Assembly (NCBI GenBank): GCA_020832515.1 | Contig: JAFIEN010000006.1 | Coordinates: 1 to 33,183, forward strand | Source of the DNA: Rubellimicrobium sp. | Lineage (GTDB): Bacteria > Pseudomonadota > Alphaproteobacteria > Rhodobacterales > Rhodobacteraceae | Length of the DNA: 33,183 bases | Reading direction: 5' to 3' | Shown here: piece after piece, positions 8,917 to 33,183 of the stretch | How positions within the stretch are numbered: position 1 is the first letter of the stretch | Layout: every line of letters starts with the position of its first letter | Notes under the pieces: model-generated | Databases searched by the model: none | Told to the model about the DNA's origin: nothing | Seen by the model: only the letters and a program-made list of their open reading frames with translations | Translations under genes and position numbers: made by a program

Positions 8917-8966
8917 CGTCAAACGACCTGCGGGCAAGGCCCGGCCAGCGGCGGCGGCAGCGGGTC

Positions 8967-10786: not shown

Positions 10787-10793
10787 GGGCAGC

Positions 10794-11873: not shown

Positions 11874-11924
11874 ACCGCGACCGACCGCCATGGCAGACCG
11901 ACGACCACGAAGGAGGCGCAGCCG

Positions 11925-11978
11925 ATGACCCATCAGACGAACGCCAGCCGCGCCCCGACGACGGGGGGCCGCAGATGA
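11925..11978 (+). CDS. Possible 17-aa small ORF translationally coupled to the downstream Gfo/Idh gene
   Basis: GAAGGAGG at 11909-11916, 8 nt before ATG; MTHQTNASRAPTTGGRR*; TGA overlaps the ATG of the next gene (ATGA). Confidence 0.4.
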   Translation: MTHQTNASRAPTTGGRR

Positions 11979-13039: not shown

Positions 13040-13040
13040 G

Positions 13041-15012: not shown

Positions 15013-15021
15013 GAAACAGTT

Positions 15022-15041
15022 CATGGCTCGACAGAGCCGTG
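15022..15041 (+). terminator. Hairpin directly after the last gene of the plus-strand cluster
   Basis: CATGGCTC-GACA-GAGCCGTG: 8-bp stem with one G-T wobble, 9 bp after the stop; no T-tract. Confidence 0.35.
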
Positions 15042-15042
15042 C

Positions 15043-15113
15043 CATGACCCCGGCGACCGGGGCTCACCGACAATCACAGGGTCATGCCGCCCGTACCGGC
15101 CGCCGGGGTCATG
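15043..15113. repeat. 18-bp inverted repeat (one mismatch) upstream of the luxR-type gene
   Basis: CATGACCCCGGCGaCCGG (15043-15060) and CCGGcCGCCGGGGTCATG (15096-15113), 35-bp spacer. Confidence 0.8.
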
Positions 15114-15256
15114 CCCCGGCCTGTCCAAAAGTCGGCAAACCCGCGCAGAGGCATGGGACAAAATCTCATCATCCATTACTCTGTGGGCGCAGCCGCACAA
15201 TCCTGCTTCAGGCCAATCGCCATGACCGACAACGCACAGGGATCATGCCAGGATGA

Positions 15257-16267
15257 ATGATCGTGGGTAAGTTGCTTGTTTCGTTGATAGATACGATCGG
15301 AAGTCCTCAGTTCTACGACAGGCTTCTCGACTTCGTCAGCAATACCGTATCGAACGACCTTGCGGCCCTGGTGCGGTATTCGCGCTCCGGTCCACCTGAC
15401 TTGATCGTGCCCCGCATCAAGCCGACCCCGGCCATGGAAAGCTACACGAAGGAATTCTACCTTCATGACCCGTTCCACCTTCACTGGACCACGACCGGTC
15501 TGATCGGCGTCTTTCACCTTCGCGAAATCGCTCCTGCCATCGGGGGGACGCGATATGCCCGCGAATTCCTTTCCGAAATGCGGATCCATGACGAGATTGC
15601 CGTCTTCCTGCCCCCCCTGGGCGAAGCGGCCCCGACCTTGATCCTGGATCGCGCCGAAACGGGGTTCACCCGGGCGGACGTGGCCAGGATCAATGCGCTT
15701 TTTCCCCTGCTGGCTGCGGTGCAACGGCGGCATCTGGAATACATAGTGCTGAGCGGGGGAAACTTCGGCCTTTCGGCGGCCGAAGAGATACAGGCCCTCA
15801 GGATCGTCGACCAGATCGGTCGTGTCGTCTATGTCACGCAGCCCTGGCGCAAGCTCGAGGCACGCGGGCTCCCGAAACTTGCATCCCTGATCGAGCGGTT
15901 TGGCGATACCGGCCCCTGCGTTTCTGCCATCGACGAAGGCCTGATCATGAAGCGCACGCGCTTGCCGTCTGATTTTGGGGCGGCTCCCGGTGGGTTCTGC
16001 GACGAGATCCTGCCCGAGGTCCTTCCCCGCGGCATGCCCATGGAACTGCCAGAGGCACTGGCTGAAAAGCTTACCCCGCGGGAACGGGATGTCGCCCGCC
16101 TGACCCTGCGGGGCTATCCGGGGATCGAGATCGCAAGGCGGCTCGGTCTAAGCCGGGGGACGGTCAAGAACCACCGCGCCGCGATTTACCGAAAGCTCGA
16201 CATCACGACCGAACGGGAACTGTTTGGCGAGTATCTGCGCGCCTTCGGGACGGCTTCGACGCCCTGA
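15257..16267 (+). CDS. LuxR-family transcriptional regulator (C-terminal HTH)
   Basis: C-terminal 'LTPRERDVARLTLRGYPGIEIARRLGLSRGTVKNHRAAIYRKLDI' GerE/LuxR HTH; N-terminal domain not an obvious autoinducer-binding domain. Confidence 0.88.
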   Translation: MIVGKLLVSLIDTIGSPQFYDRLLDFVSNTVSNDLAALVRYSRSGPPDLIVPRIKPTPAMESYTKEFYLHDPFHLHWTTTGLIGVFHLREIAPAIGGTRYAREFLSEMRIHDEIAVFLPPLGEAAPTLILDRAETGFTRADVARINALFPLLAAVQRRHLEYIVLSGGNFGLSAAEEIQALRIVDQIGRVVYVTQPWRKLEARGLPKLASLIERFGDTGPCVSAIDEGLIMKRTRLPSDFGAAPGGFCDEILPEVLPRGMPMELPEALAEKLTPRERDVARLTLRGYPGIEIARRLGLSRGTVKNHRAAIYRKLDITTERELFGEYLRAFGTASTP

Positions 16268-16453: not shown

Positions 16454-17296
16454 TCAGCCTGTTCGCGCGGCCGACAGGTCGATCTCGGTGATGTGCCAGC
16501 GTCCAAGATTGGCCGTGTACATCCGGTCGCCCTTCAGGGCCATGTTCGTGGGATGGGCCAGCACCGTGGCATGGGGGTCCTCGATCAGGATCTCGGCCTG
16601 CCTTGTCCCCTTGATCCTGCGGTAGATGCGGCCCGGTTCGTAGCAGGAGATGTAGAGGGTTCCGTCCGGGGCCAGCGCCAGCCCGTCCAGCACCTGCCCC
16701 AGGCCGGTGACAGCATCCGTCGCGGGCGCGGCGCTGCCATCCTCGCCGATCGCGACATGGCGGATGCGGCCGGTGAAGCTTTCGACCACGTAAAGGCCCG
16801 ATCCGGCTTCATCGAGGCACATGCCGTTGGCGAAATCCCAGTCCTCGAGGCTCCAGGGCCCGCCTTCGCCGGTGGCAAGGTCGAAGCGGAAGATGCCGGG
16901 CCCCGGATTGCCTTCGCCCCGACTGTCCGAGACCCAGAGCACGCCGCGTGCCTGATCGACGACCGGGTAGTTCGGCACGAGGATACCCGAGGAGGCAAAT
17001 AGCGCGAATGTGCCCGTCGCCGCCTCGTAACGCCAGATCGCGGCCTGGAGCAGGTCGCAGGCATAGCAGTTGCCTGCATCGTCGAAGGCGATGCCCAACA
17101 GGAACCCGCCGGTGGAGCCAAGGCATTCGTAGGACCCACCATCCGGCGCGATGCGGATCAGCTCGCCATTCTCGGTTCCGCACCAGACCGAGCCGTCCTT
17201 GTGGATCGCAACGCCCTCGGGATGGGCAAGGCGCGGGGTGCCAAAGATGCCGTCACAAAAGACACGGGCGGCGGTGATGGGCAGGATCGGGGTCAT
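16454..17296 (-). CDS. SMP-30/gluconolactonase/LRE family protein
   Basis: Beta-propeller motifs 'HPEGVAIHKDGSVWCGTENG', 'FANGMCLDEAGSGLYVVESFTGRI', 'LDGLALAPDGTLYISCYEPGRIYR'; RBS GAAGGAG before ATG at 17296. Confidence 0.87.
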   Translation of the reverse strand: MTPILPITAARVFCDGIFGTPRLAHPEGVAIHKDGSVWCGTENGELIRIAPDGGSYECLGSTGGFLLGIAFDDAGNCYACDLLQAAIWRYEAATGTFALFASSGILVPNYPVVDQARGVLWVSDSRGEGNPGPGIFRFDLATGEGGPWSLEDWDFANGMCLDEAGSGLYVVESFTGRIRHVAIGEDGSAAPATDAVTGLGQVLDGLALAPDGTLYISCYEPGRIYRRIKGTRQAEILIEDPHATVLAHPTNMALKGDRMYTANLGRWHITEIDLSAARTG

Positions 17297-17324
17297 GGCG
17301 GTCACTCCTTCAAAGCGGATCGAC

Positions 17325-17356
17325 TTCACAGGGGTTCGACTTCACAGGGGTTCGAC
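17325..17356. repeat. Two tandem copies of a 16-bp unit (TTCACAGGGGTTCGAC)
   Basis: Exact tandem duplication covering the aldose-epimerase stop codon and 3' end. Confidence 0.95.
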
Positions 17357-18352
17357 GGTCAGGCGGTAGGTCGTCTCGAAAATCTCGCCGGGGCCGAAGG
17401 GCCGCGCGGTGGGCGTGCCCCCGTCGCTGACCGGGTTGGGTGCGCGGGCGGTGGCGGGGCCAAGGCCGAAGGGGGAACAGATGGGTTCCATCCCCAGCGC
17501 AAGGTGGCGGCCGTTCCAGGGGGCCGCCGTCCGCCCCCGGTTGGAATACCACAACAGAAGTGAGGGGTAGACCGCCGGATCCCAGTCGATCCGCACCCGC
17601 CAGCCTTCGGAAGGGTGGGCAAGGGCGGCTGTCCCGTTGATGCCGTCCAGCTGGAGAAGCTCCTCGATCGCGCCGGGCAGTGGAACATGGGCCGCGTCGC
17701 GGGTGCCGCCGGTGCGGTCGGGGACAGTGGAGAGGTCGTCGAAGGTCCGGTCGATGGCAAAGGCTGTGGCACCCGGTTCGACTGTGCCGGGATAGGTGCG
17801 CCCGGTGCGGAAGGCGCCGGGTTCGATCCGCGCCGCGCCGGGGACATCGGGCAGGCGGAAGGTGAAGTGTAGCCCAAGGGGCAGGGTGCAGGCCGCCCGC
17901 GTCTCGATCCGCAGGGTGAAATCCAGCGCCGCCCCCTCGGATGCTGCCGAGACGATCCGCTTCAGCCGCTTCACGGGATGGCCCGAAGGATAGTCCAGCG
18001 ACAGGGCAAGGGTCCCCTGCCCGGCGTCCTCCCACTGCCAGTGGCGGTTGGACGAGGGGCCGTGCGGTTCCTCGCCCGGTTCGGGGTCGCCCAGCAGAGG
18101 CGCCCAGCGGGCGGGGGTGTCTTCGACCACGGGGACGGAATAGCCGAAGGGCACGCAGGGCCATTCGCCGCGCAGCGCCTGCAGGATGCCGGGCAGGTCC
18201 GCTGCCGCCGGGTCGTCCTCCCATGGGGCGATATGCAGCGGGCTGACCTGCCGCCCGTCGGGCAGGACAAAGACTGCAGGGCCGACCATGGCGCCCAGTG
18301 CGCGGATGGCAAAAGCCACGCGTGGCCCCGCCGCTGACCTGACCATCGTCAT
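17342..18352 (-). CDS. Aldose 1-epimerase family protein
   Basis: 'SPLHIAPWEDD', 'HGPSSNRHWQW', mutarotase-like beta-rich architecture; overlaps the enoyl-CoA hydratase stop region (ATGA). Confidence 0.7.
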   Translation of the reverse strand: MTMVRSAAGPRVAFAIRALGAMVGPAVFVLPDGRQVSPLHIAPWEDDPAAADLPGILQALRGEWPCVPFGYSVPVVEDTPARWAPLLGDPEPGEEPHGPSSNRHWQWEDAGQGTLALSLDYPSGHPVKRLKRIVSAASEGAALDFTLRIETRAACTLPLGLHFTFRLPDVPGAARIEPGAFRTGRTYPGTVEPGATAFAIDRTFDDLSTVPDRTGGTRDAAHVPLPGAIEELLQLDGINGTAALAHPSEGWRVRIDWDPAVYPSLLLWYSNRGRTAAPWNGRHLALGMEPICSPFGLGPATARAPNPVSDGGTPTARPFGPGEIFETTYRLTVEPL

Positions 18353-19134
18353 GGCCGCCCCTTTTCTGCGGCCTTTGCCGCGCTGCGTTCGGCGAAGGCG
18401 CGGACGCGGGCCTGACCGGTCTCGCTGCGGTAAAGCGCCGTGACAAGCGCGCGTTCGGCCTCGAAGCCCGGCGTCGGGTCGGGGTCCAGCGCCAGTGCCG
18501 TCAGCCGTTTCAGCCCCTCGACCGCGTCCGGCGGCTCCGCCGCGATCCCTTCGGCAAGCTCTTGCGCGCGGGGCAGCAGTGCATCAGTGGCCAGCACCTC
18601 GGCCACGAAACCGCAGGCGACGAAATCGGAGGCCGGGTAAATGCCGCCCGTCAGCAGCATGTGGTTCGCCCGGTTCCGCCCAAGCTTGCGCGTCGCGCGC
18701 TGCGTGCCACCGCCGCCGGGGACAAGGCCCAGCTTGATCTCGGGCAGGCCGAAGCGGGCCTTCTCGGAGGCCAGCACGATGTCGCAGGCCAGAACGATCT
18801 CGAACCCGCCGCCAAGAGCATAGCCGTTGACGGCGGCGATCACCGGCTTGGCGTTCTGCTCGATCGCGGCATACATCCGCGCGCCGGCCTTTTGAAAGGC
18901 GTCGAATTCCGCTTCGGTCTGGGTCGCGTATTCCTTGATATCGGCCCCGGCCATGAAGCCCTTGCCTTCGCCGGTGACGACGATGGCCCCCACGGCTGCA
19001 TCAGCGGACAGGCTTTCGAAGGCCTCCGTGATCTCGCCCATCATCTGCTTGTTCATGGCGTTGAGCTGATCGGCCCGGCGGAAGGTGACGATGGCCACGC
19101 GACCCGCGCGGGTGATGCTGACGGTGTCCATCAT
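18349..19134 (-). CDS. Enoyl-CoA hydratase/isomerase (crotonase family)
   Basis: 'FMAGADIKEYA' oxyanion segment, 'GYALGGGFEIVLACDIVLASEKARFGLPEIKLGLVPGGGGTQR' with both expected Glu positions. Confidence 0.93.
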   Translation of the reverse strand: MMDTVSITRAGRVAIVTFRRADQLNAMNKQMMGEITEAFESLSADAAVGAIVVTGEGKGFMAGADIKEYATQTEAEFDAFQKAGARMYAAIEQNAKPVIAAVNGYALGGGFEIVLACDIVLASEKARFGLPEIKLGLVPGGGGTQRATRKLGRNRANHMLLTGGIYPASDFVACGFVAEVLATDALLPRAQELAEGIAAEPPDAVEGLKRLTALALDPDPTPGFEAERALVTALYRSETGQARVRAFAERSAAKAAEKGRP

Positions 19135-20336
19135 GCCTCCTGCACGGTCATGTCGCCCGCCGCCTCGAGCGCTGCGATCTCGTCGGCCGACAGCCCGTAT
19201 TCGGCAAGGATCTCGCGCCCGTGCTGGCCGATCATCGGGGCGGGGCGGCGGATCTCGGGGGGTGTCTCGCTCATCCTGATTGCGGGGGCCACGACCTTGA
19301 CCCGGCCACCGCGCGGATGGTCGTACTCACCGATCATGCCCATGTGACGCACCTGCGGGTCCTCGGCTGCGGTGCGGATGTCGTTGACCTGCGCGCACCA
19401 GACATCGACCGCAAGAAGGCGTGCCAGCAGGTCATCGCGGTCGAACCTGCGGGTCTCGGCATTGACCTTTTCCCAGACCTCGTCGCGCTTGTCGTAAAGC
19501 ACCGTCAGGTCGTCATATTCCGCCAGATGCGGCGCCTGAAGCACGTCGTAAAGCACCTTGAACGGGCTCATCGCGATCGAGACGAACTGGCCGTCGCGGG
19601 TTTCATAGATGCCGAAGGGGGCCTGAATGCCGGGATGGCCGATGCCGGAATTGGGCCGGACGAAATCCTGCCCAAGGTTCAGGACGGCCACATACTCCTG
19701 ATTGAGATGGGCCATCATCCCCGCCAGCAGGTTGACCTCGATCTTCTGCCCCTTGCCGGTGCGCGAGCGGTAGAGCAGGGCTGCAAGGATGCCATAGACC
19801 ATGTTCATCGCGCCGATCTGGTCTGCCAGCCCGGCCCCCGCAGGGATCGGCGGGCCGTCGCCGCGCCCGGTGTTGCTGGCCAGCCCCGCCAGACCCTGGA
19901 TCAGCATGTCCTGTCCGGGGCGGTCCACATAGGGGCCGTCCTCGCCATAGCCCGAGCCCGAGCAATAGACGATGCCGGGATTGACCGCCCGGAAATCCTC
20001 GTAGCCATAACCCAGCTTCGCCATCACGCCGGGGCGGAAGTTCTGGACCACCACATCCGCCGTCTCGGCCATCTTCATCACGATCCGCCGCACCTCGGCG
20101 CTTTTCAGGTTCAGCGCGATGGAGCGTTTGTTGCGGTTCCAGGCAAGGAAGTTGGGGCTTTCACCGTCCCCCACCCATTTGGCGAAGAAGGTCATCGAGC
20201 GGAACAGGTCGCCCGGCCCCGCGCGTTCGATCTTGATGACATTGGCCCCCAGATCGCCAAGCAGTTGGGTCGCGAAAGGCCCCTGCAGAAGGTGGCTGAA
20301 ATCAAGGATCGTGATCCCGTCGAGTGCCTTGTCCAT
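19131..20336 (-). CDS. CaiB/BaiF (type III) CoA-transferase
   Basis: 'MDKALDGITILDFSHLLQGPFATQLLGDLGANVIKIE', 'NFRPGVMAKLG', catalytic-Asp segment 'DRPGQDMLIQGLAG'. Confidence 0.95.
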   Translation of the reverse strand: MDKALDGITILDFSHLLQGPFATQLLGDLGANVIKIERAGPGDLFRSMTFFAKWVGDGESPNFLAWNRNKRSIALNLKSAEVRRIVMKMAETADVVVQNFRPGVMAKLGYGYEDFRAVNPGIVYCSGSGYGEDGPYVDRPGQDMLIQGLAGLASNTGRGDGPPIPAGAGLADQIGAMNMVYGILAALLYRSRTGKGQKIEVNLLAGMMAHLNQEYVAVLNLGQDFVRPNSGIGHPGIQAPFGIYETRDGQFVSIAMSPFKVLYDVLQAPHLAEYDDLTVLYDKRDEVWEKVNAETRRFDRDDLLARLLAVDVWCAQVNDIRTAAEDPQVRHMGMIGEYDHPRGGRVKVVAPAIRMSETPPEIRRPAPMIGQHGREILAEYGLSADEIAALEAAGDMTVQEA

Positions 20337-20354: not shown

Positions 20355-21140
20355 TCAAACCAGATCGGGCACATAGCGGGGTGTCACGCACAGGCCCCCG
20401 TCCACGCGCAGATCGACCCCGGTGGTGAACCCCGCCGCATCCGAGGCAAGATAGACCGCCGCCTCGGCCACTTCCTCGGGCCGGCCGATACGGCCCATGG
20501 GATGCATCTTGACCCAGGCCCGTGCCACCGCTTCGCCCATCTGGGCGATGACGCCTTCGTTCATCGGCGTGGCGATGGTGCCGGGCGAGATCGAGTTGAC
20601 GCGGATGCCCGCAGGCCCGAACTCGACCGCCATCTGCCGGGTCATCGCCATGACCGCGCCCTTGGCGCCGGCATAGGCCGTCCAGCCATCGAGCCCGATA
20701 TGCCCCTGCGCCGAGGCCATGTTGATGATCGACCCCGATCCCTGCGCGATCATGTGGGGCAGCGCGTATTTGCAGCCGCGAAAGACCGAGGTCAGGTTGA
20801 CCGCGATCAGGCGGTGCCACTGGTCATCCGTCATCTCGTGCACCGGCATCCCGCCGATGGCCACGGCGGCATTGTTCACCAGCACGTCAATCCGTCCGCC
20901 CCAAGTCAGGGTGCGTTCGATCATCGCGCGGATGTCCCCCTCTTCGGCCACGTCGCAGCGGATGAATTCCGCCTCGGCGCCCCCGTCGCGAAGCGCCTTT
21001 GCCGCCGCCTCGCCCTTGTCCGCGTCGATGTCGGACAGCACGACACAGGCCCCCTCGGCGGCCATTGCTTTCGCGATCGCATGGCCGATCCCGTCCGCCG
21101 CCCCCGTGATCGCCGCGATCTTGCCCTTCAGTCGTTTCAT
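20355..21140 (-). CDS. SDR family NAD(P)-dependent oxidoreductase
   Basis: 'ITGAADGIGHAIA', 'NNAAVAIGG', 'MASAQGHIGLDGWTAYAGAKGAV' (S...YxxxK). Confidence 0.94.
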   Translation of the reverse strand: MKRLKGKIAAITGAADGIGHAIAKAMAAEGACVVLSDIDADKGEAAAKALRDGGAEAEFIRCDVAEEGDIRAMIERTLTWGGRIDVLVNNAAVAIGGMPVHEMTDDQWHRLIAVNLTSVFRGCKYALPHMIAQGSGSIINMASAQGHIGLDGWTAYAGAKGAVMAMTRQMAVEFGPAGIRVNSISPGTIATPMNEGVIAQMGEAVARAWVKMHPMGRIGRPEEVAEAAVYLASDAAGFTTGVDLRVDGGLCVTPRYVPDLV

Positions 21141-21152: not shown

Positions 21153-22121
21153 CTAGCGCCTGCGCCGTTGTGTTTCGTCCAGCGCGACGGCGGCGATGAT
21201 GATCAGTCCGGTGATGACAAGCTGCCATTCGGTGGGCAGCCGCAACTGCCCCAGCCCGTTGGCAAGGAACGCAAGGATCAACACCCCCAGCGCCACACCC
21301 CAAAGCGTGCCGATCCCGCCTGCAAGGCTGATGCCGCCCAGCACGACGGCGGCGACCACCTGAAACTCGAACCCGATGCCCGTCACATGCACCGCAGATC
21401 CCAGGCGCGAGGACAGAAGGATACCCGCCACGGCCGTCAGCAGGGCCGAGATGACGAAGGTCAGGAACTTGACCTTCCGCACGTCATATCCCGCCAGTCG
21501 CGCCACCTCGGCATTGCCGCCCACGGCATAGACCTGCCGCCCGAAGGGGCGGTATTTCAGGACCCAGACGAAGAACAGGAGCACGACGATCCCTGCAACG
21601 GCGGGCCAGGGCAGGATGCCGAACAGCCGCCCGTTGCCGATCTGGTAGAAACTTTCCAGCATCACCCGGTCCGGGATCGCGCGCTGCCCGGTGTAAAGGT
21701 AGATCAGGCCGCGCAGGACGAAGAGCATCCCCAGCGTCACGATCAGTGAGTTGATCCGCGCATAGGCGACAAGCCATCCGTTCACCACGCCCACCACCAG
21801 CGCAAATCCCAGGGCCGCCGCGATGCCAAGGCCCATCGAGCCGGTTTCGTTCATCACCACGATCAAGGGCACCGCCACCGCGCCCAGAAGCGAGCCGACC
21901 GAGACGTCGATCTCGCCCGCCAGAACCACGATGGCCACGCCTACGCCCGCGATCAGCGGAAAGGCGGCCTGGCCCAGGACATTGGTGATGTTGCGCTGGG
22001 TCAGGAACGTATCGGCGGCCAGCGTGAAGAACACGATCAGCACGGCAAGGCTGAAGGCCAGCGCCGGTTCGTTGCGGGCCGCCAGCCGCCGCAACCTGCC
22101 CGCGTCAGAGGATGGCGGCAT
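21153..22121 (-). CDS. CUT2 ABC transporter permease (RbsC-like)
   Basis: 'GVGVAIVVLAGEIDVSVGSLLG', 'AVVLGGISLAGGIGTLWGVALGVLIL' typical of BPD_transp_2. Confidence 0.94.
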   Translation of the reverse strand: MPPSSDAGRLRRLAARNEPALAFSLAVLIVFFTLAADTFLTQRNITNVLGQAAFPLIAGVGVAIVVLAGEIDVSVGSLLGAVAVPLIVVMNETGSMGLGIAAALGFALVVGVVNGWLVAYARINSLIVTLGMLFVLRGLIYLYTGQRAIPDRVMLESFYQIGNGRLFGILPWPAVAGIVVLLFFVWVLKYRPFGRQVYAVGGNAEVARLAGYDVRKVKFLTFVISALLTAVAGILLSSRLGSAVHVTGIGFEFQVVAAVVLGGISLAGGIGTLWGVALGVLILAFLANGLGQLRLPTEWQLVITGLIIIAAVALDETQRRRR

Positions 22122-23610
22122 TGAGTATCTCCTCCTGCGTGGCGGTGGCGGCGTCCAGTTCTGCGGTGATCCGGCCGCCGGCCATCACCATGATCCGGTC
22201 CGACAGGCCCAGAAGCTCGGGCATTTCCGAGGTCATCATCACCACCGCCAGCCCCTGCGAGGCCAGCTGGTCGATCAGGGCAAAGATCTCGGCTTTTGCG
22301 CCCACGTCGATGCCGCGCGTCGGTTCGTCCACCACGATCACCTTGAGCCCCTTGAGAAGCCAGCGCGACACCAGAACCTTCTGCTGGTTGCCCCCCGACA
22401 GAAGCTTGATCGGCTGGTCAAGCCCGGGGGTGCGGATGCGGAAGCGGTCGACATAATCCTGAACCGCCGCCCGTTCGCGCCGCCCGTCGATGAACGGCCC
22501 CTTCGCCCATTTGGGCAGCGAGGCAAGCGAGGCATTGGCCGTCACCTCGAGGTCGAGCATCAGCCCCTCGCGCTTGCGGTCCTCGCTCAGAAGGCCGATG
22601 CCAAGCCGCACGCCGGTGGCCGTGTCATGCGGCGAAAGGGGGGTGCCGTCGATCTCGATCCGGCCCGCCCGGATGCGGTCGAAACCGACGATGGCCTTGG
22701 CCAGTTCCGTCCGCCCCGCGCCCATCAGGCCGAAGAAGCCCACCACCTCGCCCGCCCGCGCGGTAAAGGCGATGTCGCGCAGCCCCGTCGCCGTCTCAAG
22801 ATCCTCGACCGAAAGCATGATTTCGCCCGGCACATGCCCGCGCGTGCGGGGATAGAGCGCCTCGATCTTGCGGCCGATCATGTCGTGGATCAGGCTGTCC
22901 TCGGTATGCTCGGCCTTGGGTTTCGTCGAGACATGCCGCCCGTCGCGCAGGACGGTGACCGTGTCGGCGATGGCAAAGATCTCGTCCAGCTTGTGACTGA
23001 CATAAAGGACCGCAATCCCCAGCCCGGTCAGGCGGCGGATGACGGCGAAAAGCTGCTCGACCTCGGCGGGGGTCAGGGACGAAGAGGGTTCGTCCATCAC
23101 CACGATCCGGGCATCCTTGGCCAGCGCGCGCGCGATCTCGACCATCTGCTGCTGGCTGACGGGCAGGTCGCGGACCTTTGCGCGCGGATCGACGGCAAAG
23201 CCCACCCGGTCGAACAGGGCGCGGGCCTCGTCCTCGATCTGCCGCCAGCGGATCGAACCGCCGGGGCCCACGGGATATTCGCCCAGAAACAGGTTCTCGG
23301 CGACGGTGAATTCGTCGATCAGCGCGATTTCCTGAAACACGACCTTGACCCCGCGCGCGAGCGCGTCGCGCGGCGATTGCAGCGCCACCTCTTCGCCCCC
23401 GATCCGGATCGTGCCCTCGTCGGGCAGATAGACCCCGGCAAGGATCTTGATCAGCGTCGACTTGCCCGCCCCGTTTTCGCCCATCAGCGCATGAACCCGG
23501 CCCGGTTCAAGCCGCAGGCCCACATCCTCGAGCGCGACCACGCCGGGAAAGCGCTTGCCGATTCCCGTCATCTCGAGCGCCGGTGCCAGCGTCATGGCGT
23601 CAGTGTCCAT
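22105..23610 (-). CDS. CUT2 ABC transporter ATP-binding protein with two NBDs (RbsA/MglA-like)
   Basis: Walker A 'GENGAGKST', signature-like 'LPVSQQQMVEIARALAKD', 'DEPSSSLT'; second NBD 'LLSGGNQQKVLVSRWLLKGLKVIVVDEPTRGIDVGAK'; start chosen at ATG 23610 overlapping the permease stop. Confidence 0.95.
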   Translation of the reverse strand: MDTDAMTLAPALEMTGIGKRFPGVVALEDVGLRLEPGRVHALMGENGAGKSTLIKILAGVYLPDEGTIRIGGEEVALQSPRDALARGVKVVFQEIALIDEFTVAENLFLGEYPVGPGGSIRWRQIEDEARALFDRVGFAVDPRAKVRDLPVSQQQMVEIARALAKDARIVVMDEPSSSLTPAEVEQLFAVIRRLTGLGIAVLYVSHKLDEIFAIADTVTVLRDGRHVSTKPKAEHTEDSLIHDMIGRKIEALYPRTRGHVPGEIMLSVEDLETATGLRDIAFTARAGEVVGFFGLMGAGRTELAKAIVGFDRIRAGRIEIDGTPLSPHDTATGVRLGIGLLSEDRKREGLMLDLEVTANASLASLPKWAKGPFIDGRRERAAVQDYVDRFRIRTPGLDQPIKLLSGGNQQKVLVSRWLLKGLKVIVVDEPTRGIDVGAKAEIFALIDQLASQGLAVVMMTSEMPELLGLSDRIMVMAGGRITAELDAATATQEEILNAAIL

Positions 23611-24574
23611 CGCCCCGCCTCCGCACCTGATCAAGCCATGTGGCAAGGATGATGACGACGCCCGGCACCACCATCTGCAGGTCCTGGTTCCAGCGCAGGA
23701 TGATGATGCCGTTGTCGATCACCTTGAGCACCAGTACGCCAAGGATCGTGCCAAGGATCGTGCCCCGCCCGCCCGACAGGCTGGTCCCGCCAAGGATCAC
23801 GGCGGCCACGACCGTCAGCTCGAACCCGCGCCCCGCCGTGGGCTGGCCCGCATTCATGAGCGAGGCAAGGATCAACCCGGCAAGCCCCGTCAGAAGCCCG
23901 GTCAGGACGAACAGGGTGAAGCGCAACCGCTCGGGCCTGAGGCCCGCCAGCCGCGCGGCGGTGGCATTGGCGCCGACCGCATAGATCGACCGGCCCGCGA
24001 CGGTGCGCGACAACACGATCCATGCAAGGATGCAAACGATAGTCGCAAGGATCACGGGGATCGGCACCGGGCCGACATAGCCGGTGGACAGCGTGGTGAA
24101 GGACGGGAGTTGATGACGGTTCTGCACCGCCTCGCGCGTGTAGAGATAGACGCCGCCCTGCAGGATCATCAGCGTGGCAATGGTGGCGATCAGCGAATTG
24201 ACCCGAAGCCGGGTCACCACCACACCGTTGAACACGCCCACCAGACCGCCGAAGGCGATACCCGCGGCGGCGCCCAGGGCGAAGTTCCCGGTCTTGTTCG
24301 TCACATCCATCGCCACGCAGCCCGAAAAGGCCAGCGAGGCACCGACCGACAGATCGACCTCGGCCGAAATGAGCAGAAGCGTCATCCCCGCCGCCACGAT
24401 CAGGACAAGCGCGCATTGCCGCAGGATGGCGACAAGGTTCTCGGCCGAGAAGAACTGCGCCGAGCCCAGCGAAAAGCCGATCACCAGCAGCACCAGAAGC
24501 CCGAGCAGGATCAGCTGCCCGTTGGCGGCAAGGCCCGTGGCGCGCGCCGGTGCGGCGACGGATGTGTCGGACAT
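23600..24574 (-). CDS. CUT2 ABC transporter permease (RbsC-like)
   Basis: 'MTLLLISAEVDLSVGASLAFSG', 'AVILGGTSLSGGRGTILGTILGVLVL'. Confidence 0.94.
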   Translation of the reverse strand: MSDTSVAAPARATGLAANGQLILLGLLVLLVIGFSLGSAQFFSAENLVAILRQCALVLIVAAGMTLLLISAEVDLSVGASLAFSGCVAMDVTNKTGNFALGAAAGIAFGGLVGVFNGVVVTRLRVNSLIATIATLMILQGGVYLYTREAVQNRHQLPSFTTLSTGYVGPVPIPVILATIVCILAWIVLSRTVAGRSIYAVGANATAARLAGLRPERLRFTLFVLTGLLTGLAGLILASLMNAGQPTAGRGFELTVVAAVILGGTSLSGGRGTILGTILGVLVLKVIDNGIIILRWNQDLQMVVPGVVIILATWLDQVRRRGDGH

Positions 24575-24596
24575 GGACTGCTCCGGTTCCGGATGG

Positions 24597-24623
24597 TCCC
24601 GGGCGCGCAGGACGCGCCCGGGA
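24597..24623 (-). promoter_or_regulatory. Intercistronic stem-loop between CUT2 binding protein and permease genes
   Basis: TCCCGGGCGCG-CAGGA-CGCGCCCGGGA: perfect 11-bp stem, 5-nt loop. Confidence 0.7.
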
Positions 24624-24633
24624 TCGTTTCACG

Positions 24634-25656
24634 TCAAAGATCGGCGGCCGTCATCATGCAGGCGGCGGGTGCCTCGAGCTGGTTCACATTGTCCCAGTTG
24701 ATCGTGCGCACGTCGCCTTCTACACTGTAGAACTGCTGCCATTCATCCCCCACCATCGGCGCGGTGGGCGAGACGATATGCTCTGGCAGGTCCTCGCCGT
24801 TGAACAGCGCGACCGCGGCGTCAAGCGTGGTGAAGCCCACCTTCTCGGGGAACATCGCCGCCTCGATCCGCCAGGCGGGTTCGGTCTCCATCGCGTTGAT
24901 GAAGGCCAGCCCCTCGCCCCCGGTGCCGACGACCAGCAGGTTGTCCTGATCGCGGCCCGAGGCCTTCCACGCCTGCAGCCCGCCCTGTGCGGAACTGTCG
25001 TTGATGCCGTAGATGATGTTGATCTCGGCATTCTGCGCCAGCGCCGCCGCCGACACCTCGAGCGAGCGGTCGGGGTTGCCGCCGCCGTCAAGGTCATGGA
25101 CCATCACCGCATCCGGGATCACCGTCTGCAGCCCGTCCATGAAGCCCATCGACCGCAGCACCGTGGCCGACAGAAGCGGCAGGCCCACGTTCATCACCCG
25201 CGCCTCGCCGCCCAGATGCTCCATCGCGTGCGCCCCGGCGGCAACACCCGCGTGATAGCCGGTGTCATAGTCGCAGATCGCGACCATCGTGGTCATGCCG
25301 CGCACCGGGTTGCCTTCCAGCACCACGGGCAGCCCCTCTTCGCCGGCGCGGCGCAGAAGCTGGACCACGCCTTCCTCGTTCACGGGCGTGATGATGAGGA
25401 CATCGACGCCCTGCGCCATGAAGTCTTCGGCGGCGGCGATCTGCCGGGCCACGTCAAGGTTGGCGTCCCGCACCTCGAGCTGGATGCCCAGTTCGTCGGC
25501 CCGGTCCTGCATCCCCTTGATCACGTTCTGGTACCACTCGTGCGTGGCGTAGTTGACGATATAGCCGATCCGTTCCGGCGTTTCCGCCACGGCAAGGCCC
25601 GCCGTCAGGGCAAGGGCCGCAACGCCGCCGAAAAGCATGTGGTTGAGCCGTTTCAT
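24634..25656 (-). CDS. CUT2 sugar-binding protein (RbsB-like) with Sec-type signal peptide
   Basis: 'MKRLNHMLFGGVAALALTAGLAVAETPERIGYIVNYATHEWYQNVIKGMQ', 'MAQGVDVLIITPVNEEGV' periplasmic-binding-protein type 1 features. Confidence 0.93.
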   Translation of the reverse strand: MKRLNHMLFGGVAALALTAGLAVAETPERIGYIVNYATHEWYQNVIKGMQDRADELGIQLEVRDANLDVARQIAAAEDFMAQGVDVLIITPVNEEGVVQLLRRAGEEGLPVVLEGNPVRGMTTMVAICDYDTGYHAGVAAGAHAMEHLGGEARVMNVGLPLLSATVLRSMGFMDGLQTVIPDAVMVHDLDGGGNPDRSLEVSAAALAQNAEINIIYGINDSSAQGGLQAWKASGRDQDNLLVVGTGGEGLAFINAMETEPAWRIEAAMFPEKVGFTTLDAAVALFNGEDLPEHIVSPTAPMVGDEWQQFYSVEGDVRTINWDNVNQLEAPAACMMTAADL

Positions 25657-25828: not shown

Positions 25829-27571
25829 TCACGCATCGGCGGCCTGGGCTTGCGTGTCGTCAAGGCAGGCGACAAGCCCCGCCCGGTCGCGGGCGAGGAT
25901 CTCGTCCAGAAGCGAGGCGCGATCGCGCGCGGCGACGAATTCCAGCCGCCTCAGGCCCAGCGGGTCGATCTGGCTGCGCAAGACTGCAAGGGTCGCCGCA
26001 TCGGGCAGGTCCATCTCGCGGCAATCGGGGGCAAAGCGCACCTCCCATCCGGTCGCCGCGCGGATCGCGTCATGGCCCACCCCGGGCAGGGTTTCGGTCA
26101 CGACAAGCGTGCCCTCCTCTTCGTCCAGCCGCAACAGGCACAGGTCGGTCAGGACGGTCGTCCCGCCCGGCCGGTAGCCCAGTTCGGCCCGGCGCGCGCC
26201 GGTCACGCCCCGGGCAGAGCTGGCGACAGCCACCTGTTCGACAAGCGTGCGGGGCGAATGGCGGGTGACATACAGCACGTTCTGCGCATGCATGTTGGCC
26301 ACGTCCGACATGCCGCCCTGCCCGGCAAGGCGCAGGGGCGCGCCCGAGGGTTTGGTCAGTTCAAGGTTGTTGACCCGGCCCCGCCGATCCACCTGCGCCG
26401 CACCGATGATCTCATGCGTGACGCGGCCGGCCTGATAATAGGCGGCATAGGTATCCTCGCCCCCGGCATGTGCGGCGGCGGTGGCTGCGTCCAGCACCTC
26501 GTAAAGCGACAGGCTTAGCGGGCCGGGCGGCACGTCAAGATGGCCTGCGGTGAAGGTCATCAGCATCATGCCCGGCGCATGGGTCGCCCGCGCCAGCCGA
26601 TAGGCGACATTGGCCAGGGGCGAGACGGCGCCTGCGCTGGCGAAAGTGGCGTCGTCCAGCATCCGCGACAGGCGGATGGCCATGATCTCGTCCACCGTGG
26701 GCGGGTCGTCGGCCGGCTTTGCGGCAAAGGCTCCGGCCCGGATGGCCTTCGGGGCAAGGCGCGCCGCCGCGCGCAGATCCGGCGCGATCCTGCGATCCGC
26801 AAGCGCCGCCACAAGGGACGGCGCATCAAGCGCTGTCCGGATCGCCTGCCAGCCGGTCACGTATTGCGGCAGGCAGGATGTGGGCGCGGCCCCGCCGGGC
26901 ACATGCGCGATCGCACCGATCAGCGGACGCGGGATCACCGTCAGCCGCCCCATCCCGGCAAGCGCGCCTTCGGGCACGATCTCGTCCACCGTCACCAGAA
27001 CATCGCGCGCGGCCCCAGCCAGCAGCACGTCAAGCGCGCGGGCGCCAAGGATCGCCACATTGCCCGCCGCATCCGCATAGGGTGCATGGATCAGCGCCAC
27101 ATCCGGGCGCACCGCCGCGACCCGGCCATAGCTGCGGCCCGACCCCTCGTCCTGCGCGACGCACAACCCGGGACAGCGGTCCGCCATGTCCGACCCTTCG
27201 GGCAGTTGCACCGGAAGGTAAGGCAGGTTGCGCATCCCGGCCTCGAGCGCCGCGATCATCGCAAGCGCGGGCCAGTCGTGTACGGGAAGGCCGCGCGCTT
27301 CGGCCACGGCGCGGAACCGGGGCGGCAGGCCGAAGATATCAAGGCTGGAGAAACACAGGTCGATCCGCGCGATCCGCCCCGCCTCGAGCAGGATTTCCAG
27401 GGGCAGACCCCCGCCCCATGAAAACCACCTCAGGCCCCCCGGCCCGACCTTGGCAAGCTGCAGAAGTGCCGCCACCGGCACCCGCGCGAAGTGATGCCCC
27501 CCCACCGCGATCCGCGCCCCTTCCGGAATGCGCGCGACCAGTTCCTCGAGCGGGACGATGCGGGGTGTCAT
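25829..27571 (-). CDS. Fused type I CoA-transferase alpha/beta-like protein (GctA-GctB / IpdA-IpdB-like)
   Basis: N-half 'MTPRIVPLEELVARIPEGARIAVGGHHFARVPVAALLQL...HAPYADAAGNVAILG'; C-half 'DEIMAIRLSRMLDDATFASAGAVSPLANVAYRLARATHAPGMMLMTFTAG'; start chosen at ATG 27571. Confidence 0.8.
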   Translation of the reverse strand: MTPRIVPLEELVARIPEGARIAVGGHHFARVPVAALLQLAKVGPGGLRWFSWGGGLPLEILLEAGRIARIDLCFSSLDIFGLPPRFRAVAEARGLPVHDWPALAMIAALEAGMRNLPYLPVQLPEGSDMADRCPGLCVAQDEGSGRSYGRVAAVRPDVALIHAPYADAAGNVAILGARALDVLLAGAARDVLVTVDEIVPEGALAGMGRLTVIPRPLIGAIAHVPGGAAPTSCLPQYVTGWQAIRTALDAPSLVAALADRRIAPDLRAAARLAPKAIRAGAFAAKPADDPPTVDEIMAIRLSRMLDDATFASAGAVSPLANVAYRLARATHAPGMMLMTFTAGHLDVPPGPLSLSLYEVLDAATAAAHAGGEDTYAAYYQAGRVTHEIIGAAQVDRRGRVNNLELTKPSGAPLRLAGQGGMSDVANMHAQNVLYVTRHSPRTLVEQVAVASSARGVTGARRAELGYRPGGTTVLTDLCLLRLDEEEGTLVVTETLPGVGHDAIRAATGWEVRFAPDCREMDLPDAATLAVLRSQIDPLGLRRLEFVAARDRASLLDEILARDRAGLVACLDDTQAQAADA

Positions 27572-27572: not shown

Positions 27573-28382
27573 TCATCCCGCCCCCACCACGCCGGCCCCA
27601 AGATTGCGCGAGATCGTCCGGGCCGCCTCGAGCACCATCGCGCGGGCCTCGTCCCGCGGCACGGTGGCCGCACGCTGCGGAACATAAGGCAGGGTCAGCG
27701 CCGCAACCGCCCGACCCTGATGGTCAAAGACCGGGGCCGCGATATTTGTGACACCCGAAACGGCCAAGGATTCGCGCATCTCGTATCCTGCCGCGCGGAT
27801 CTGCAGGGCGCGGGCCTCGACCGCCGCGATCTCTTCGGGGGTTCGCCCCTCGTCGCGCAGCCAGTCCAGCAGCTGGTCGCGCCGCCGGTCGCCCGCGAAG
27901 GCGTAGAGGACCGTCCCGCCGCTGGTCTCGGCAAAGTCGAACTTCGCGCCCAGCATGACGGAATAGCGCATCGGCAGCGGATTATCGACCTGCAGGACGA
28001 TCAGGAACTCATGCCCGCTCAGCACGCCCAGATGGCACGATTGCAGCGCGGCGGGGGCCAGCGACTGCATCACATGCAGCGCCGAATCCGACAGGCGCCG
28101 GACCGAGGGCATCCGGTGCGCAAGATCGAACAGCTTCAGCGACAGCCGATAGCCGTCCGAGGGCACCCGCTGATACAGGTAACCCCGCGCCTCGAGGACG
28201 ACCAGCAGGCGATAGACCTCGTGGACCGACCGGCCCATCAGATTGGCGATCTCGGTCGCGGTCAGACCGCCGACCTGCGCCGCCATGAATTCAAGGATAT
28301 CGAGTGCCTTCTCGGCCGCAGGCACCGAATAGACCCGCTTTCCGGTGCCCGACTCGCTTCCCGCCGTGCTTTCGTCGTTCAT
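27573..28382 (-). CDS. IclR family transcriptional regulator
   Basis: 'YSVPAAEKALDILEFMAAQVGGLTATEIANLMGRSVHEVYRLLVVLEARGYLYQ' wHTH plus IclR ligand domain 'LGVLSGHEFLIVLQVDNPLPMRYSVMLGAKFDFAETSGGTVLYAF'. Confidence 0.94.
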   Translation of the reverse strand: MNDESTAGSESGTGKRVYSVPAAEKALDILEFMAAQVGGLTATEIANLMGRSVHEVYRLLVVLEARGYLYQRVPSDGYRLSLKLFDLAHRMPSVRRLSDSALHVMQSLAPAALQSCHLGVLSGHEFLIVLQVDNPLPMRYSVMLGAKFDFAETSGGTVLYAFAGDRRRDQLLDWLRDEGRTPEEIAAVEARALQIRAAGYEMRESLAVSGVTNIAAPVFDHQGRAVAALTLPYVPQRAATVPRDEARAMVLEAARTISRNLGAGVVGAG

Positions 28383-29539
28383 GCCATGGCCTCGGTTCCG
28401 TCCGGCACGATCCGGCCATAGGCCTCGTTCAGCCAGTCCGCGAAGGCGGCCTCTCCGGTTCCGGTCGCCACCACATCGGCGATCCTGAGGGTCGCCTCGT
28501 GGAAGAAGGCGATATAGCCCGGCGGCCGTGTTCGCAGCCATGCAGCATCCAGCGCGGGCAGGGTCGCGGCGAAGAAGCCGTTCGAGAGGTGATTGGCGGT
28601 TTCCGAGGTCCAGGCGCTGCGGCTGCCGGGCTGGCCGCCGTGTTCGACATAGGGTCCGGACTGAAAGCCCGGGCTGCACAGATGCATCGCATAGGCGAAG
28701 GCCGCTTCGGGATTGCGCGACTGCGCGCTGATGCCGATCCCGGCCCCGCCAAGGACGGTCCGTGCCGGGGCCTGCGCCACCCGGGGCGGGGCGGCAAAGC
28801 GGATCGGCCCGGTCGTGCTGTAATTCACATAATTGAAAAGCCAGGGCACATAGGCCACCTCGTCGGTGGCGGCCATGTGATCGAGGCACCGGATCGGGTT
28901 CCAGCCCCGTGATGCCGGATGAACGACAGAGAACAGGCGGCGCAGCATGCCGATCCCCTCCCTGCTCAGCTCGGGGTCGAGGAACCGACCATCCTGCCCG
29001 CGCCCCGGGTCGGCTCCGCTCGAGGCGGCAATGGACAGGAAGGTGCCCATCAGATCCGTGGGGTTTGCAGGCCAGCCAACGAAAAGACCCCGCGGCCTCA
29101 GGCGCTCTGCCAGCGCGATGACATCGTCCAGCGTCTCTGGCAGCACTTCGCCTGCCTGGGACAGCAGATCGGGCCTCGCGGCGGCGGTCTGTCCCGCAGC
29201 ATCTATCGGCAGCCCCCAGAGACCGGACCCATAGCTGTAGGATGCCCAGGATTGCCCGACTGAGTCCTTTGCGAAGGTTTGAAGGTCCTCTGCTGTCAGG
29301 AAGGCTGACAGGTCGTGAAGCAGACGCTTTTCGGCGATGTCCCCGACAAAGGGATGATCGTAGATCAGAAGGTCGTAATCGCTGACGAAGTCGGACAGAT
29401 CGCCTTCGCCGAAGGAATACAGGCTCCGCCTGTCCCAGATCACGTCCTGACCCGTCGATGCCTTCCATGGCTGGATGCTCGCTTCCAGCGGCCCCCAGCA
29501 GCGGCGATGATCCCAGGCGATGCCCTTGAGTGTCAGCAT
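28379..29539 (-). CDS. Solute-binding-protein (family 1)-like protein lacking an evident signal peptide
   Basis: Starts 'MLTLKGIAWDHRRCWGPLEASIQPWKASTGQDVIWDRRSL'; body resembles family 1 SBP; RBS GGAAAGGGG upstream of ATG 29539; 4-bp overlap with iclR. Confidence 0.75.
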   Translation of the reverse strand: MLTLKGIAWDHRRCWGPLEASIQPWKASTGQDVIWDRRSLYSFGEGDLSDFVSDYDLLIYDHPFVGDIAEKRLLHDLSAFLTAEDLQTFAKDSVGQSWASYSYGSGLWGLPIDAAGQTAAARPDLLSQAGEVLPETLDDVIALAERLRPRGLFVGWPANPTDLMGTFLSIAASSGADPGRGQDGRFLDPELSREGIGMLRRLFSVVHPASRGWNPIRCLDHMAATDEVAYVPWLFNYVNYSTTGPIRFAAPPRVAQAPARTVLGGAGIGISAQSRNPEAAFAYAMHLCSPGFQSGPYVEHGGQPGSRSAWTSETANHLSNGFFAATLPALDAAWLRTRPPGYIAFFHEATLRIADVVATGTGEAAFADWLNEAYGRIVPDGTEAMA

Positions 29540-30112: not shown

Positions 30113-31027
30113 TCAGAAACGCCTGGGTAGCCACCGCTTCTCGATCCGGCAGACCATCGTGTAGGCCGGGTCGAAGACATTGCCTACGTCATAGCGCACG
30201 GTCTGCCCCATGAGATGGCTGGCCGCGACCGGGCTGAGGCCGTAGTCGTGGACAAGCCAGTTGAACATGTCGGTCGTCGCATGCTGCAGCGCCTGGTCAA
30301 GCGGCCTTGCGTTGCCGACCGAGAAGATATGGGTCGCATCCTCGCCGCGCGGCCATACCAGGCCCCGGCCCTTCTCGACTGTCAGGCGCACCTCGACCTC
30401 GAAGCAGGTCTCGATACCGGTCCCGACAATCTCGCCGTCACCTTGCGTCGCATGGCAGTCGCCGAGGAAGAAAAGCGCGCCGGGCGCAGCGACAGGAAAC
30501 CAGACGGTCGTTCCCGGGCCGAACCCGCGGTAGTCCATGTTGCCGCCGTTCTCGGCGCTGGTCGCCGTCGAAAACGCCTGCCCCAAGGCCGGCGCCACAC
30601 CGAAGCAGCCGATCATGGGCTCAAGGGGCAGGATCAGATCCTCGAGGCCGGGGACCACCGGGTCAAGGGTTGCAGTCTGCGCCTGCAGGTCGATCCGCCA
30701 GTTGACCTTGTCCCTTGGCGGGAGCTTGCCCGCTGCCTCGGGATCAACGACATTTTCAGCAAGCGAAGCAATGGTCCATCCGGTGGGCCGGATCGGAGTC
30801 ATGCGGAGGATTTCTACCTTAAGTGCGTCACCCGGCTCTGCTCCCACCACGAAGATCGGGCCGTTCATCGGGTTGGGATCCGGCGCTCGCTTCACGCCGT
30901 CCTTGTCGACGCCATGCGCGTCGATGGTTTCGGTGATCACCGTGTCACCTGACTCAACGGTCAGGCTGGCCGGCACGGAGCCGAGGACATTGTGCCATTT
31001 GTCTGCGACAAAGTGATGCGTTTTCAT
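30113..31027 (-). CDS. Acetamidase/formamidase family protein
   Basis: 'PASLTVESGDTVITETIDAHG', 'NPMNGPIFVVGAEPGDALKVEIL', 'FLGDCHATQGDGEIVGTGIET'. Confidence 0.9.
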   Translation of the reverse strand: MKTHHFVADKWHNVLGSVPASLTVESGDTVITETIDAHGVDKDGVKRAPDPNPMNGPIFVVGAEPGDALKVEILRMTPIRPTGWTIASLAENVVDPEAAGKLPPRDKVNWRIDLQAQTATLDPVVPGLEDLILPLEPMIGCFGVAPALGQAFSTATSAENGGNMDYRGFGPGTTVWFPVAAPGALFFLGDCHATQGDGEIVGTGIETCFEVEVRLTVEKGRGLVWPRGEDATHIFSVGNARPLDQALQHATTDMFNWLVHDYGLSPVAASHLMGQTVRYDVGNVFDPAYTMVCRIEKRWLPRRF

Positions 31028-31477: not shown

Positions 31478-32641
31478 GTGGAAAAGGCCAAGCCTACGGT
31501 GAACGTGGCGGGAGAGTGCATGGTACCAGGTACGCCCGAAGGGTTTCTTCAGTTCGACAGGGTCCAGAAGAGCTACGACCAGACGACCCTCGTCGTCAGG
31601 GACTTCAATCTGGATGTGGCGAAGGGCGAGTTCGTGACGCTTCTTGGTCCTTCGGGGTCGGGCAAGTCGACGGTCCTGATGATGCTCGCCGGCTTCGAAA
31701 GCCTGACCAGCGGCGACATTCGCCTGCAGGGTACCTCGATCGCACGGACGGCGCCATACAAGCGCGACATCGGCATGGTTTTCCAGAACTATGCCCTGTT
31801 CCCGCACATGACCATCGCCGAGAACCTCGCCTATCCACTGAAGCTCAGAAAGCGCCCCGCTTCCGAGATCAAGGCCAAGGTGCAGGAATACCTCGACCTC
31901 GTGGAGCTGGGCGATTTCGGCACCCGCACGCCCGCGCAGCTCTCGGGCGGGCAGCGGCAGCGGGTGGCGCTCGCGCGCGCGCTCATCTTCGCGCCGCGGC
32001 TCGTGCTGATGGACGAACCGCTTGGCGCGCTCGACAAGAAGCTGCGCGAGCAGATGCAGCTGGAGATCACCCGTCTGCACAAGCAGCTGGGCTTCACGGT
32101 GATCTACGTCACTCACGACCAGACCGAGGCGCTGACGATGTCGAACCGCATCGCAGTGTTCAACGCCGGCATCGTCCAGCAGTGCGACGCGCCGGACGTG
32201 CTCTACGAGACCCCGCGCAACGGCTTCGTGGCCGATTTCATCGGCGAGAACAACTTCCTCCCCGGAGAGGTCGTGGGCCTGACCGACACGGTGGCCGAGG
32301 TGCGCATCTCCTCGGGAGACGTCGTGCGCGCGCGCCGGGCCGACGCGGACCGCGTGGGCATGCGCTGCCAGATATCGGTGCGGCCGGAAAAGCTGTTCCT
32401 CATGCCCTCCGACCATGCCTTCGACACCAAGTTCACCGCGCGCTTCACCAACCGGCTCTACGTGGGCGACTTCATCCGCTACTTCTTCAGGCTTCCCGAT
32501 GGAACGGAACTCGTCGTCAAGGTGCTGAATGATCTGGCGGCGCCCGAATACGCCGACGACCAGGAAGTGACGCTCATCGCCGCGACCAAGGATTGTTCGG
32601 CCTTCGCACCGCACAAGGCCGTTCATGAGGACGGGACATAA
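31478..32641 (+). CDS. Polyamine/spermidine-type ABC transporter ATP-binding protein (PotA-like)
   Basis: Walker A 'GPSGSGKST', '[19 protein letters not shown]', 'VLMDEPLGALDKKLREQMQ'; GTG at 31478 or in-frame ATG at 31520 are possible starts. Confidence 0.93.
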   Translation: MEKAKPTVNVAGECMVPGTPEGFLQFDRVQKSYDQTTLVVRDFNLDVAKGEFVTLLGPSGSGKSTVLMMLAGFESLTSGDIRLQGTSIARTAPYKRDIGMVFQNYALFPHMTIAENLAYPLKLRKRPASEIKAKVQEYLDLVELGDFGTRTPAQLSGGQRQRVALARALIFAPRLVLMDEPLGALDKKLREQMQLEITRLHKQLGFTVIYVTHDQTEALTMSNRIAVFNAGIVQQCDAPDVLYETPRNGFVADFIGENNFLPGEVVGLTDTVAEVRISSGDVVRARRADADRVGMRCQISVRPEKLFLMPSDHAFDTKFTARFTNRLYVGDFIRYFFRLPDGTELVVKVLNDLAAPEYADDQEVTLIAATKDCSAFAPHKAVHEDGT

Positions 32642-32678
32642 CCCGCCCGAGACAGACCACCAACAGAGGAGACAACCA

Positions 32679-33183
32679 ATGACAACAACGACACGACTTC
32701 TGGCAGCAACCGCACTTGCGGTGATGGCCGTTCCCGCGGCGGCGCAGGACCTGACCGTGGTATCCTTCGGGGGCGCCTATGGCGCGGCACAGCGCACGCA
32801 CATGATCGACCCGTTCATGCAGGAGACCGGCGTCAACATCCTGTTCGAGGACTATTCGGGCGGCATCGCCGAGATCAAGGCGCAGGTCGAGGCCGGCAAC
32901 ATCCTCTGGGACGTGGTCGACATCGAGGTGATCGACCTCGAGCGCGCCTGCTCTGAAGGGCTTCTCGAGGAGATCCCGCGCGACATCCTGCCCGCCGGCG
33001 ACGACGGCACGCCCGCGCTCGAGGACTTCTACCCCGAGGCGCTCGCCAGCGAATGCGGCGTCGGCGTGATCTTCTGGTCCACGATCTTCGCCTACAACCA
33101 GACTGCCTTCCCGGACGGCGGCCCCAAGACCATCGCCGAGGTCTTTGACACCGAAGCCTTCCCGGGTCCGCGCGCCCTGCGCC
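32679..33183 (+). CDS. Extracellular solute-binding protein (PotD/PotF-like), truncated by the window end
   Basis: 'MTTTTRLLAATALAVMAVPAAAQDLTVVSFGGAYGAAQRTHMIDPFMQETGVNI' with signal peptide; open to the last base. Confidence 0.9.
   Translation, partial: MTTTTRLLAATALAVMAVPAAAQDLTVVSFGGAYGAAQRTHMIDPFMQETGVNILFEDYSGGIAEIKAQVEAGNILWDVVDIEVIDLERACSEGLLEEIPRDILPAGDDGTPALEDFYPEALASECGVGVIFWSTIFAYNQTAFPDGGPKTIAEVFDTEAFPGPRALR

Follow-up and report, generated by a model that had tools for sequence, protein, structure and literature searches.

The protein encoded at positions 28379-29539 of the window (the whole 33,183-nucleotide stretch of Rubellimicrobium sp. DNA that was analysed), hereafter SBPL, belongs to a family of solute-binding protein (SBP) homologues whose constant partner is a CaiB-type class III CoA-transferase and not the IclR regulator encoded next to it. 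We consider it probable, at about 0.6, that SBPL is a former sugar-binding protein acting in the cytoplasm, where it would handle a sugar-acid intermediate together with CaiB and an enoyl-CoA hydratase or a MaoC dehydratase. The preliminary description of this DNA, which placed SBPL in a unit with the IclR regulator and a fused CoA-transferase, had picked up a genuine but local form of this gene neighbourhood; the family-wide partner is the CaiB gene at 19131-20336. The genes concerned are as follows.

28379-29539, minus strand: SBPL, SBP-fold protein of 386 aa without a signal peptide (Pfam SBP_bac_1, AlphaFold2, Foldseek, 124 N-termini)
27573-28382, minus strand: IclR-family regulator (Pfam HTH_IclR and IclR_C), its start overlapping the SBPL stop
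25829-27571, minus strand: fused class I CoA-transferase (Pfam CoA_trans, two stretches)
24634-25656, minus strand: RbsB-type periplasmic binding protein, the importer's own SBP (Sec signal MKRLNHMLFGGVAALALTAGLAVA; Pfam Peripla_BP_4; 52 of 52 loci of the window's clade)
23600-24574, minus strand: CUT2 permease, AraH/RbsC-like (Pfam BPD_transp_2)
22105-23646, minus strand: CUT2 double ATPase, AraG/RbsA-like (Pfam ABC_tran twice; NCBIfam AraG, 565 bits)
21153-22121, minus strand: second CUT2 permease (Pfam BPD_transp_2)
20355-21140, minus strand: SDR dehydrogenase (Pfam adh_short_C2)
19131-20336, minus strand: CaiB/BaiF class III CoA-transferase, the family-wide partner (Pfam CoA_transf_3, 350.8 bits)
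18349-19134, minus strand: enoyl-CoA hydratase/isomerase family protein (by sequence; homologous to annotated enoyl-CoA hydratases near SBPL elsewhere)
17342-18352, minus strand: aldose 1-epimerase-like protein (groups with annotated aldose 1-epimerase proteins of SBPL loci; clusters with a neighbour in locus L011)
16454-17329, minus strand: SMP-30/gluconolactonase-like protein (by resemblance to an annotated SMP-30 adjoining SBPL in Microvirga)
7496-8866: binding protein with a Tat-like signal, MNIQRLPLRRRSFLQGSAALFGASA
32625-33182: binding protein with the signal MTTTTRLLAATALAVMAVPAAA

The SBPL frame is genuine, as judged from two Pfam matches above gathering (SBP_bac_1, 41.5 bits against a gathering score of 26, and SBP_bac_8) and from 48 orthologues with 45-58% identity that a first scan found in GTDB genomes. 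The start that had been chosen for its ribosome-binding site was upheld: the ATG at 29539 is preceded by CTGGAAAGGGGATCCAGC, with a purine-rich site at a spacing of about 7 nt, and in all 48 relatives of the first scan the alignment begins at the same start, GxAWDHRRCWGPL. The overlap of the SBPL stop with the IclR start (ATGA, 28379-28382) can be read in the sequence, and the three other binding proteins of the window do bear recognisable Sec or Tat leaders, as had been reported. Upstream of the SBPL start the frame stays open up to 29902; this extension contains no hydrophobic segment, and its nearest in-frame starts give MKSGLMWAWESLERGSSMLTLKG. For the fused class I CoA-transferase the mechanical start (27685) is too early; the ATG at 27571 (MTPRIVPLEELVARIPEGARIAVGG, MTPRIVPLEEL), which suits the domain and coincides with the IclR stop, is the probable start, and therefore the IclR/CoA-transferase junction also looks translationally coupled. 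The TTG start of the CUT2 ATPase (22105-23646) was likewise set mechanically and probably lies too far upstream. An acetamidase/formamidase-family protein (30113-31027, 304 aa) that scores below the FmdA equivalog cut-off is encoded upstream of SBPL on its strand; no such gene was found adjoining SBPL among the relatives examined. Positions 1-16267 hold two more sugar import and oxidation clusters, which lie on the plus strand, face the SBPL cluster and contain MalFG permeases, UgpC-type ATPases, and Gfo/Idh and TIM-barrel isomerases; a LuxR-type regulator (15257-16267) stands between them and the SBPL cluster. The open reading frame at 5744-7468 (574 aa) is inflated by an upstream extension, and the C-terminal portion (VIGLDVGGTKIAGG) resembles a ROK-family sugar kinase.

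Relatives of SBPL were drawn from GTDB genomes, from class, family and phylum samples and from plasmids, which gave 124 members and, at 70% identity, 63 representatives. The family profile scores these members at 204-642 bits and the true binding proteins of the same loci at no more than 37 bits; members were found in Alphaproteobacteria, Variovorax, Streptomyces and Bacteroidota. Export signals were scored by a crude hydropathy measure in place of SignalP, and by this measure none of the 124 members shows a hydrophobic stretch within residues 1-20. Applied to residues 1-60 of the true SBPs from these loci, the test was passed by 68 of 95. Furthermore, the start codon lies 5-14 residues (mostly 7-12) before the invariant Trp in the 124 members, and in 56 of them an in-frame stop occurs less than 30 codons upstream, which is too close for a signal peptide. 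The absence of a signal peptide, first noted for SBPL itself, was thus borne out in its homologues, and it is a trait of the family; a missed N-terminal extension carrying such a signal was rejected because of the upstream in-frame stops in relatives. The most divergent members, L161 and L162 (204-226 bits), start with WDDPRC and not WDHPRG, and since L161 adjoins a sulfatase, the family may reach into sulfated-sugar clusters. A fusion of SBPL with CaiB, considered for members with long upstream open frames (e.g., L095), was not established, these being open frames only.

An AlphaFold2 model of SBPL, built from a full-length alignment of 23 relatives, reached a mean pLDDT of 93.9 and a pTM of 0.92, and its best solved matches in Foldseek were SmoF (7qhv, TM 0.84) and MalE3 of T. 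maritima (6dtq, TM 0.85), at 15-18% identity. The model predicts a two-lobed MalE/SmoF-like fold of the SBP_bac_1 superfamily. A single SBP domain spans the 386 residues, and neither Pfam nor the model indicates an output domain, DNA-binding or other. No Pfam family other than SBP_bac_1 and SBP_bac_8 was matched (E up to 0.001), no homology to a known enzyme family of the periplasmic-binding-protein fold was found in Pfam or NCBIfam, and no NCBIfam model was found to cover the SBPL of the window or three divergent members. With SmoF, MalE3 and T. litoralis TMBP (1eu8), SBPL shares the fold (TM 0.81-0.85) and full-length homology, and its Asp61 and Arg336 align with their cleft residues. However, SBPL differs from these proteins in its lack of a signal peptide and of a dedicated permease, in its linkage to CaiB, and in having Ala115 in place of the canonical sugar Asp and LGG[A/T]G in place of LGGW.

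Although the median pairwise identity is 34%, nineteen positions of SBPL reach an invariance of 97% or more, among them W9, R13, D61, P63, D113, A115, G264, G265, G267, Q303, W310 and R336, of which R13, D61, D113, Q303, W310 and R336 are potential catalytic residues of the cleft; Asp10 and His11 were invariant in the first alignment and vary across the wider family. The cleft positions were placed by alignment to solved relatives and not by measured distances: in the profile alignment D61 is matched by an Asp in TMBP and R336 by Arg345 in SmoF, the Asp at SmoF 113 corresponds to the invariant Ala115, and the Trp of LGGW is replaced by Thr, Ala or Val. In the solved proteins the Asp, Trp and Arg at these aligned positions make contact with the sugar or with its sulfonate, and in SBPL both the canonical sugar-binding Asp and the stacking Trp are replaced. 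The LGGW comparison covers the solved homologues TMBP, MalE3 and SmoF only, because a motif search in the true SBPs of the loci was uninformative. The site is constant across clusters with different sugar enzymes, which suggests one common ligand type, and in view of the two invariant Arg this ligand is perhaps an acid. Since the true SBPs compared for conservation are more divergent (20% median identity) and no matched control, conservation alone is not a matched test, and its strength in SBPL can also reflect one conserved ligand without catalysis.

A class III CoA-transferase gene is directly adjacent to SBPL, that is, at most 150 bp away and on the same strand, in 35 of the 63 representatives, and all 35 pairs fall outside the clade of the window, where they make up 35 of 49 representatives. 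As some reference CaiBs came from annotated plasmid loci, a second count took only the representatives found by SBPL alone in the genome draws, and adjacency was seen in 26 of 39. In the same loci, permeases adjoin CaiB in 0 of 91 cases and true SBPs in 1 of 55. CaiB lies upstream of SBPL in 17 pairs and downstream in 19, the genes mostly overlapping or being no more than 12 bp apart, and on a maximum-likelihood tree the gene order switched at least six times among paired members; the pairing is therefore hard to explain without selection for keeping the two together. All 37 partner CaiBs compared retain an Asp (Asp172) where class III enzymes have their nucleophile. This residue, the family motifs and an adjacent enoyl-CoA hydratase or MaoC are points of likeness to class III enzymes such as succinate-glutarate CoA-transferase and formyl-CoA transferase, but the partner CaiBs score far below every NCBIfam equivalog cut-off; we know of no characterised class III CoA-transferase with an SBP-fold partner. 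An enoyl-CoA hydratase or a MaoC dehydratase occurs in the neighbourhood of 43 of the 63 representatives, and the enoyl-CoA hydratase of the window falls into the same conserved neighbour cluster in 27 loci. Also encoded nearby are sugar-acid dehydratases, lactonases, Gfo/Idh and SDR dehydrogenases, mutarotases and FAH hydrolases. CaiB may not be indispensable, because it is absent from the examined stretch in 15 of 63 representatives (some of them on short contigs), several of which have MR/MLE dehydratases, lactonases or SDRs adjoining SBPL. In L097, L175 and L176, one of them with MaoC, SBPL is flanked or followed by two CaiB genes in divergent orientation, and tandem CaiB pairs follow it in L088, L093, L163 and L165; such pairs suggest heteromeric CaiB enzymes.

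We propose that a sugar-type SBP ancestor of SBPL lost its export signal long ago, that a separate importer with its own SBP would bring the sugar in, and that SBPL would work in the cytoplasm on a sugar-acid intermediate after this import, acting together with the CaiB-type CoA-transferase and the enoyl-CoA hydratase or MaoC dehydratase. In the putative cleft, Arg13 and Arg336 would hold the acid group, and Asp61, His62 and Asp113 would provide acid/base or hydroxyl-binding groups. SBPL is most likely a cytoplasmic enzyme or a substrate-handling subunit that acts with CaiB, and we infer that it would be catalytic rather than a non-catalytic subunit presenting substrate to CaiB. At somewhat less than even odds, the whole family may be an enzyme or obligate catalytic subunit, descended from sugar-binding proteins of the MalE/SmoF type, that, with CaiB and the enoyl-CoA hydratase or MaoC, makes up an undescribed CoA-dependent sugar-acid route; equally tentative is the idea that this putative route extends through Proteobacteria, Actinomycetota and Bacteroidota, where the label 'extracellular solute-binding protein' conceals it.

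A milder form of this explanation is that SBPL serves as a non-catalytic cytoplasmic carrier or specificity subunit, which would present the sugar acid or its CoA ester to CaiB. The adjacency to CaiB in both gene orders and the fully retained SBP fold would suit such a role. However, the invariant acidic residues are placed where sugar SBPs differ, SBPL loci without CaiB exist, and, to our knowledge, the cytoplasmic single-domain proteins of this fold that can be named (CDT, MqnA/MqnD and NMT1) are all enzymes, so that we regard the carrier as unlikely. Among the three roles that had been left side by side for SBPL, namely sensor, carrier or enzyme, the enzyme is thus favoured over the carrier, and the sensor found no positive support because SBPL has no output domain and the family no constant regulator partner.

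The case for a sensor is confined to the clade of the window, which comprises 14 representatives with the WDHRRCW motif that form one supported group on the tree. The gene order in this clade is SBPL, IclR, a CUT2 importer with an RbsB-type SBP (52 of 52 loci), SDR, CaiB and enoyl-CoA hydratase, with IclR directly downstream of SBPL in 49 of 52 loci and CaiB, in 47 of 52, at a median of 6.4 kb downstream, within one cluster and past a complete importer that has a binding protein of its own. The fused class I enzyme, by contrast with these genes, occurs in 8 of the 52 loci, in the closest relatives of the window only. IclR is adjacent on the same strand in 11 of the 14 clade representatives versus 3 of the 49 others, and regulators of LacI, GntR, DeoR or LysR types are found at other SBPL loci. 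The unit with IclR and the fused enzyme is therefore real locally, IclR being mostly limited to the clade and the fused enzyme to a few of its loci, and the linkage anticipated across orthologues holds for CaiB/BaiF and enoyl-CoA hydratase or MaoC, but for IclR mostly within the clade. A cytoplasmic sensor that binds the pathway substrate and modulates IclR would be consistent with the ATGA overlap and with the position of IclR in the clade; nevertheless, the scarcity of IclR elsewhere, the different regulators there and the ligand domain that IclR proteins themselves possess (Pfam IclR_C) make it very improbable, and an SBPL-IclR sensor pair was rejected as mostly clade-specific.

It was claimed that no permease is adjacent to SBPL, which is literally true, but 2.7-7.2 kb downstream the cluster includes a complete CUT2 importer (21153-25656) and the binding protein that belongs to it. 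Permeases of the MalFG and CUT2 types were modelled and counted in the 53 representative loci that are flanked by 5 kb or more on either side. A permease was present somewhere in 39 of them, 35 of which have a separate SBP, and neither type was present in 14, at least one of which (L127) has an Opp-type permease. The Bacteroidota locus of Rufibacter has TonB/SusD and RhaT and no MalFG or CUT2 permease, that of Streptomyces NBC_00184 has none by model or in its annotation, and no annotated ABC permease was found within 8-9 kb at the Streptomyces and Rufibacter loci. A continued role in transport, with SBPL serving a nearby permease after export by some unrecognised route or from a misassigned start, might be read from the 39 loci with a permease and from two representatives with permease genes within 300 bp of SBPL. 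However, in both of the latter a further SBP precedes the permeases, or seems to do so at a contig edge, and no leader was seen in the 124 members, with upstream stops in 56. We rejected a transport role on the strength of the signal-bearing SBPs in the same loci and of the permease-free loci, and give it only a slight chance. The earlier suggestion that SBPL has given up transport for a role in the cytoplasm finds good support at the scale of the family, because export signals are missing in all members, signal-bearing SBPs accompany the permeases, and 14 of 53 loci lack the searched permeases. The Rufibacter locus (L088) also encodes, at 12670-13797, a second annotated sugar ABC substrate-binding protein in its SBPL-CaiB-CaiB cluster, which is not SBPL by profile. 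Finally, a decaying or spurious, functionless SBP pseudogene that lost its leader, which the frame open to 29902 without a conserved leader might suggest, has a negligible probability and is already contradicted by the conservation of SBPL across phyla, with 19 nearly invariant positions and a conserved start and gene pairing.

Enzymes with the periplasmic-binding-protein fold are known, namely MqnA/MqnD and NMT1 (THI5), and SBPL resembles them in the presumed use of this two-lobed fold in the cytoplasm, but it has different neighbours and no Pfam match to their families (E up to 0.001). A possible evolutionary route from binding protein to enzyme is offered by cyclohexadienyl dehydratase (CDT/PheC), an enzyme with an amino-acid SBP as its ancestor (PMC7683729). 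The ancestor of CDT was a cationic amino-acid SBP, and CDT yields phenylpyruvate or phenylalanine, whereas SBPL belongs to the MalE/SmoF sugar type. The literature also acknowledges cytosolic proteins of a single domain that bear SBP signatures (PMC9602780). No description of the SBPL family or of an SBP-CaiB pairing was found in the open literature searched, most subscription papers lying outside its scope. SBPL represents a new family of a known kind, in which the binding-protein fold is probably reused in the cytoplasm with a new partner. As anticipated for such proteins, nearly all of the annotated plasmid matches listed carry the name of a solute- or substrate-binding protein, and because of these labels and the missing NCBIfam model the family looks systematically misannotated as a transport component. 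If SBPL is catalytic, it would be a fresh case of a binding protein turned enzyme, arising from a sugar-binding lineage and not from an amino-acid-type ancestor like that of CDT, and it would define a CoA-based branch of sugar-acid catabolism. It would also open a way to study CaiB-type enzymes, which have been described as having no known precise role, e.g., in SAR202 sponge symbionts (PMC6306507).
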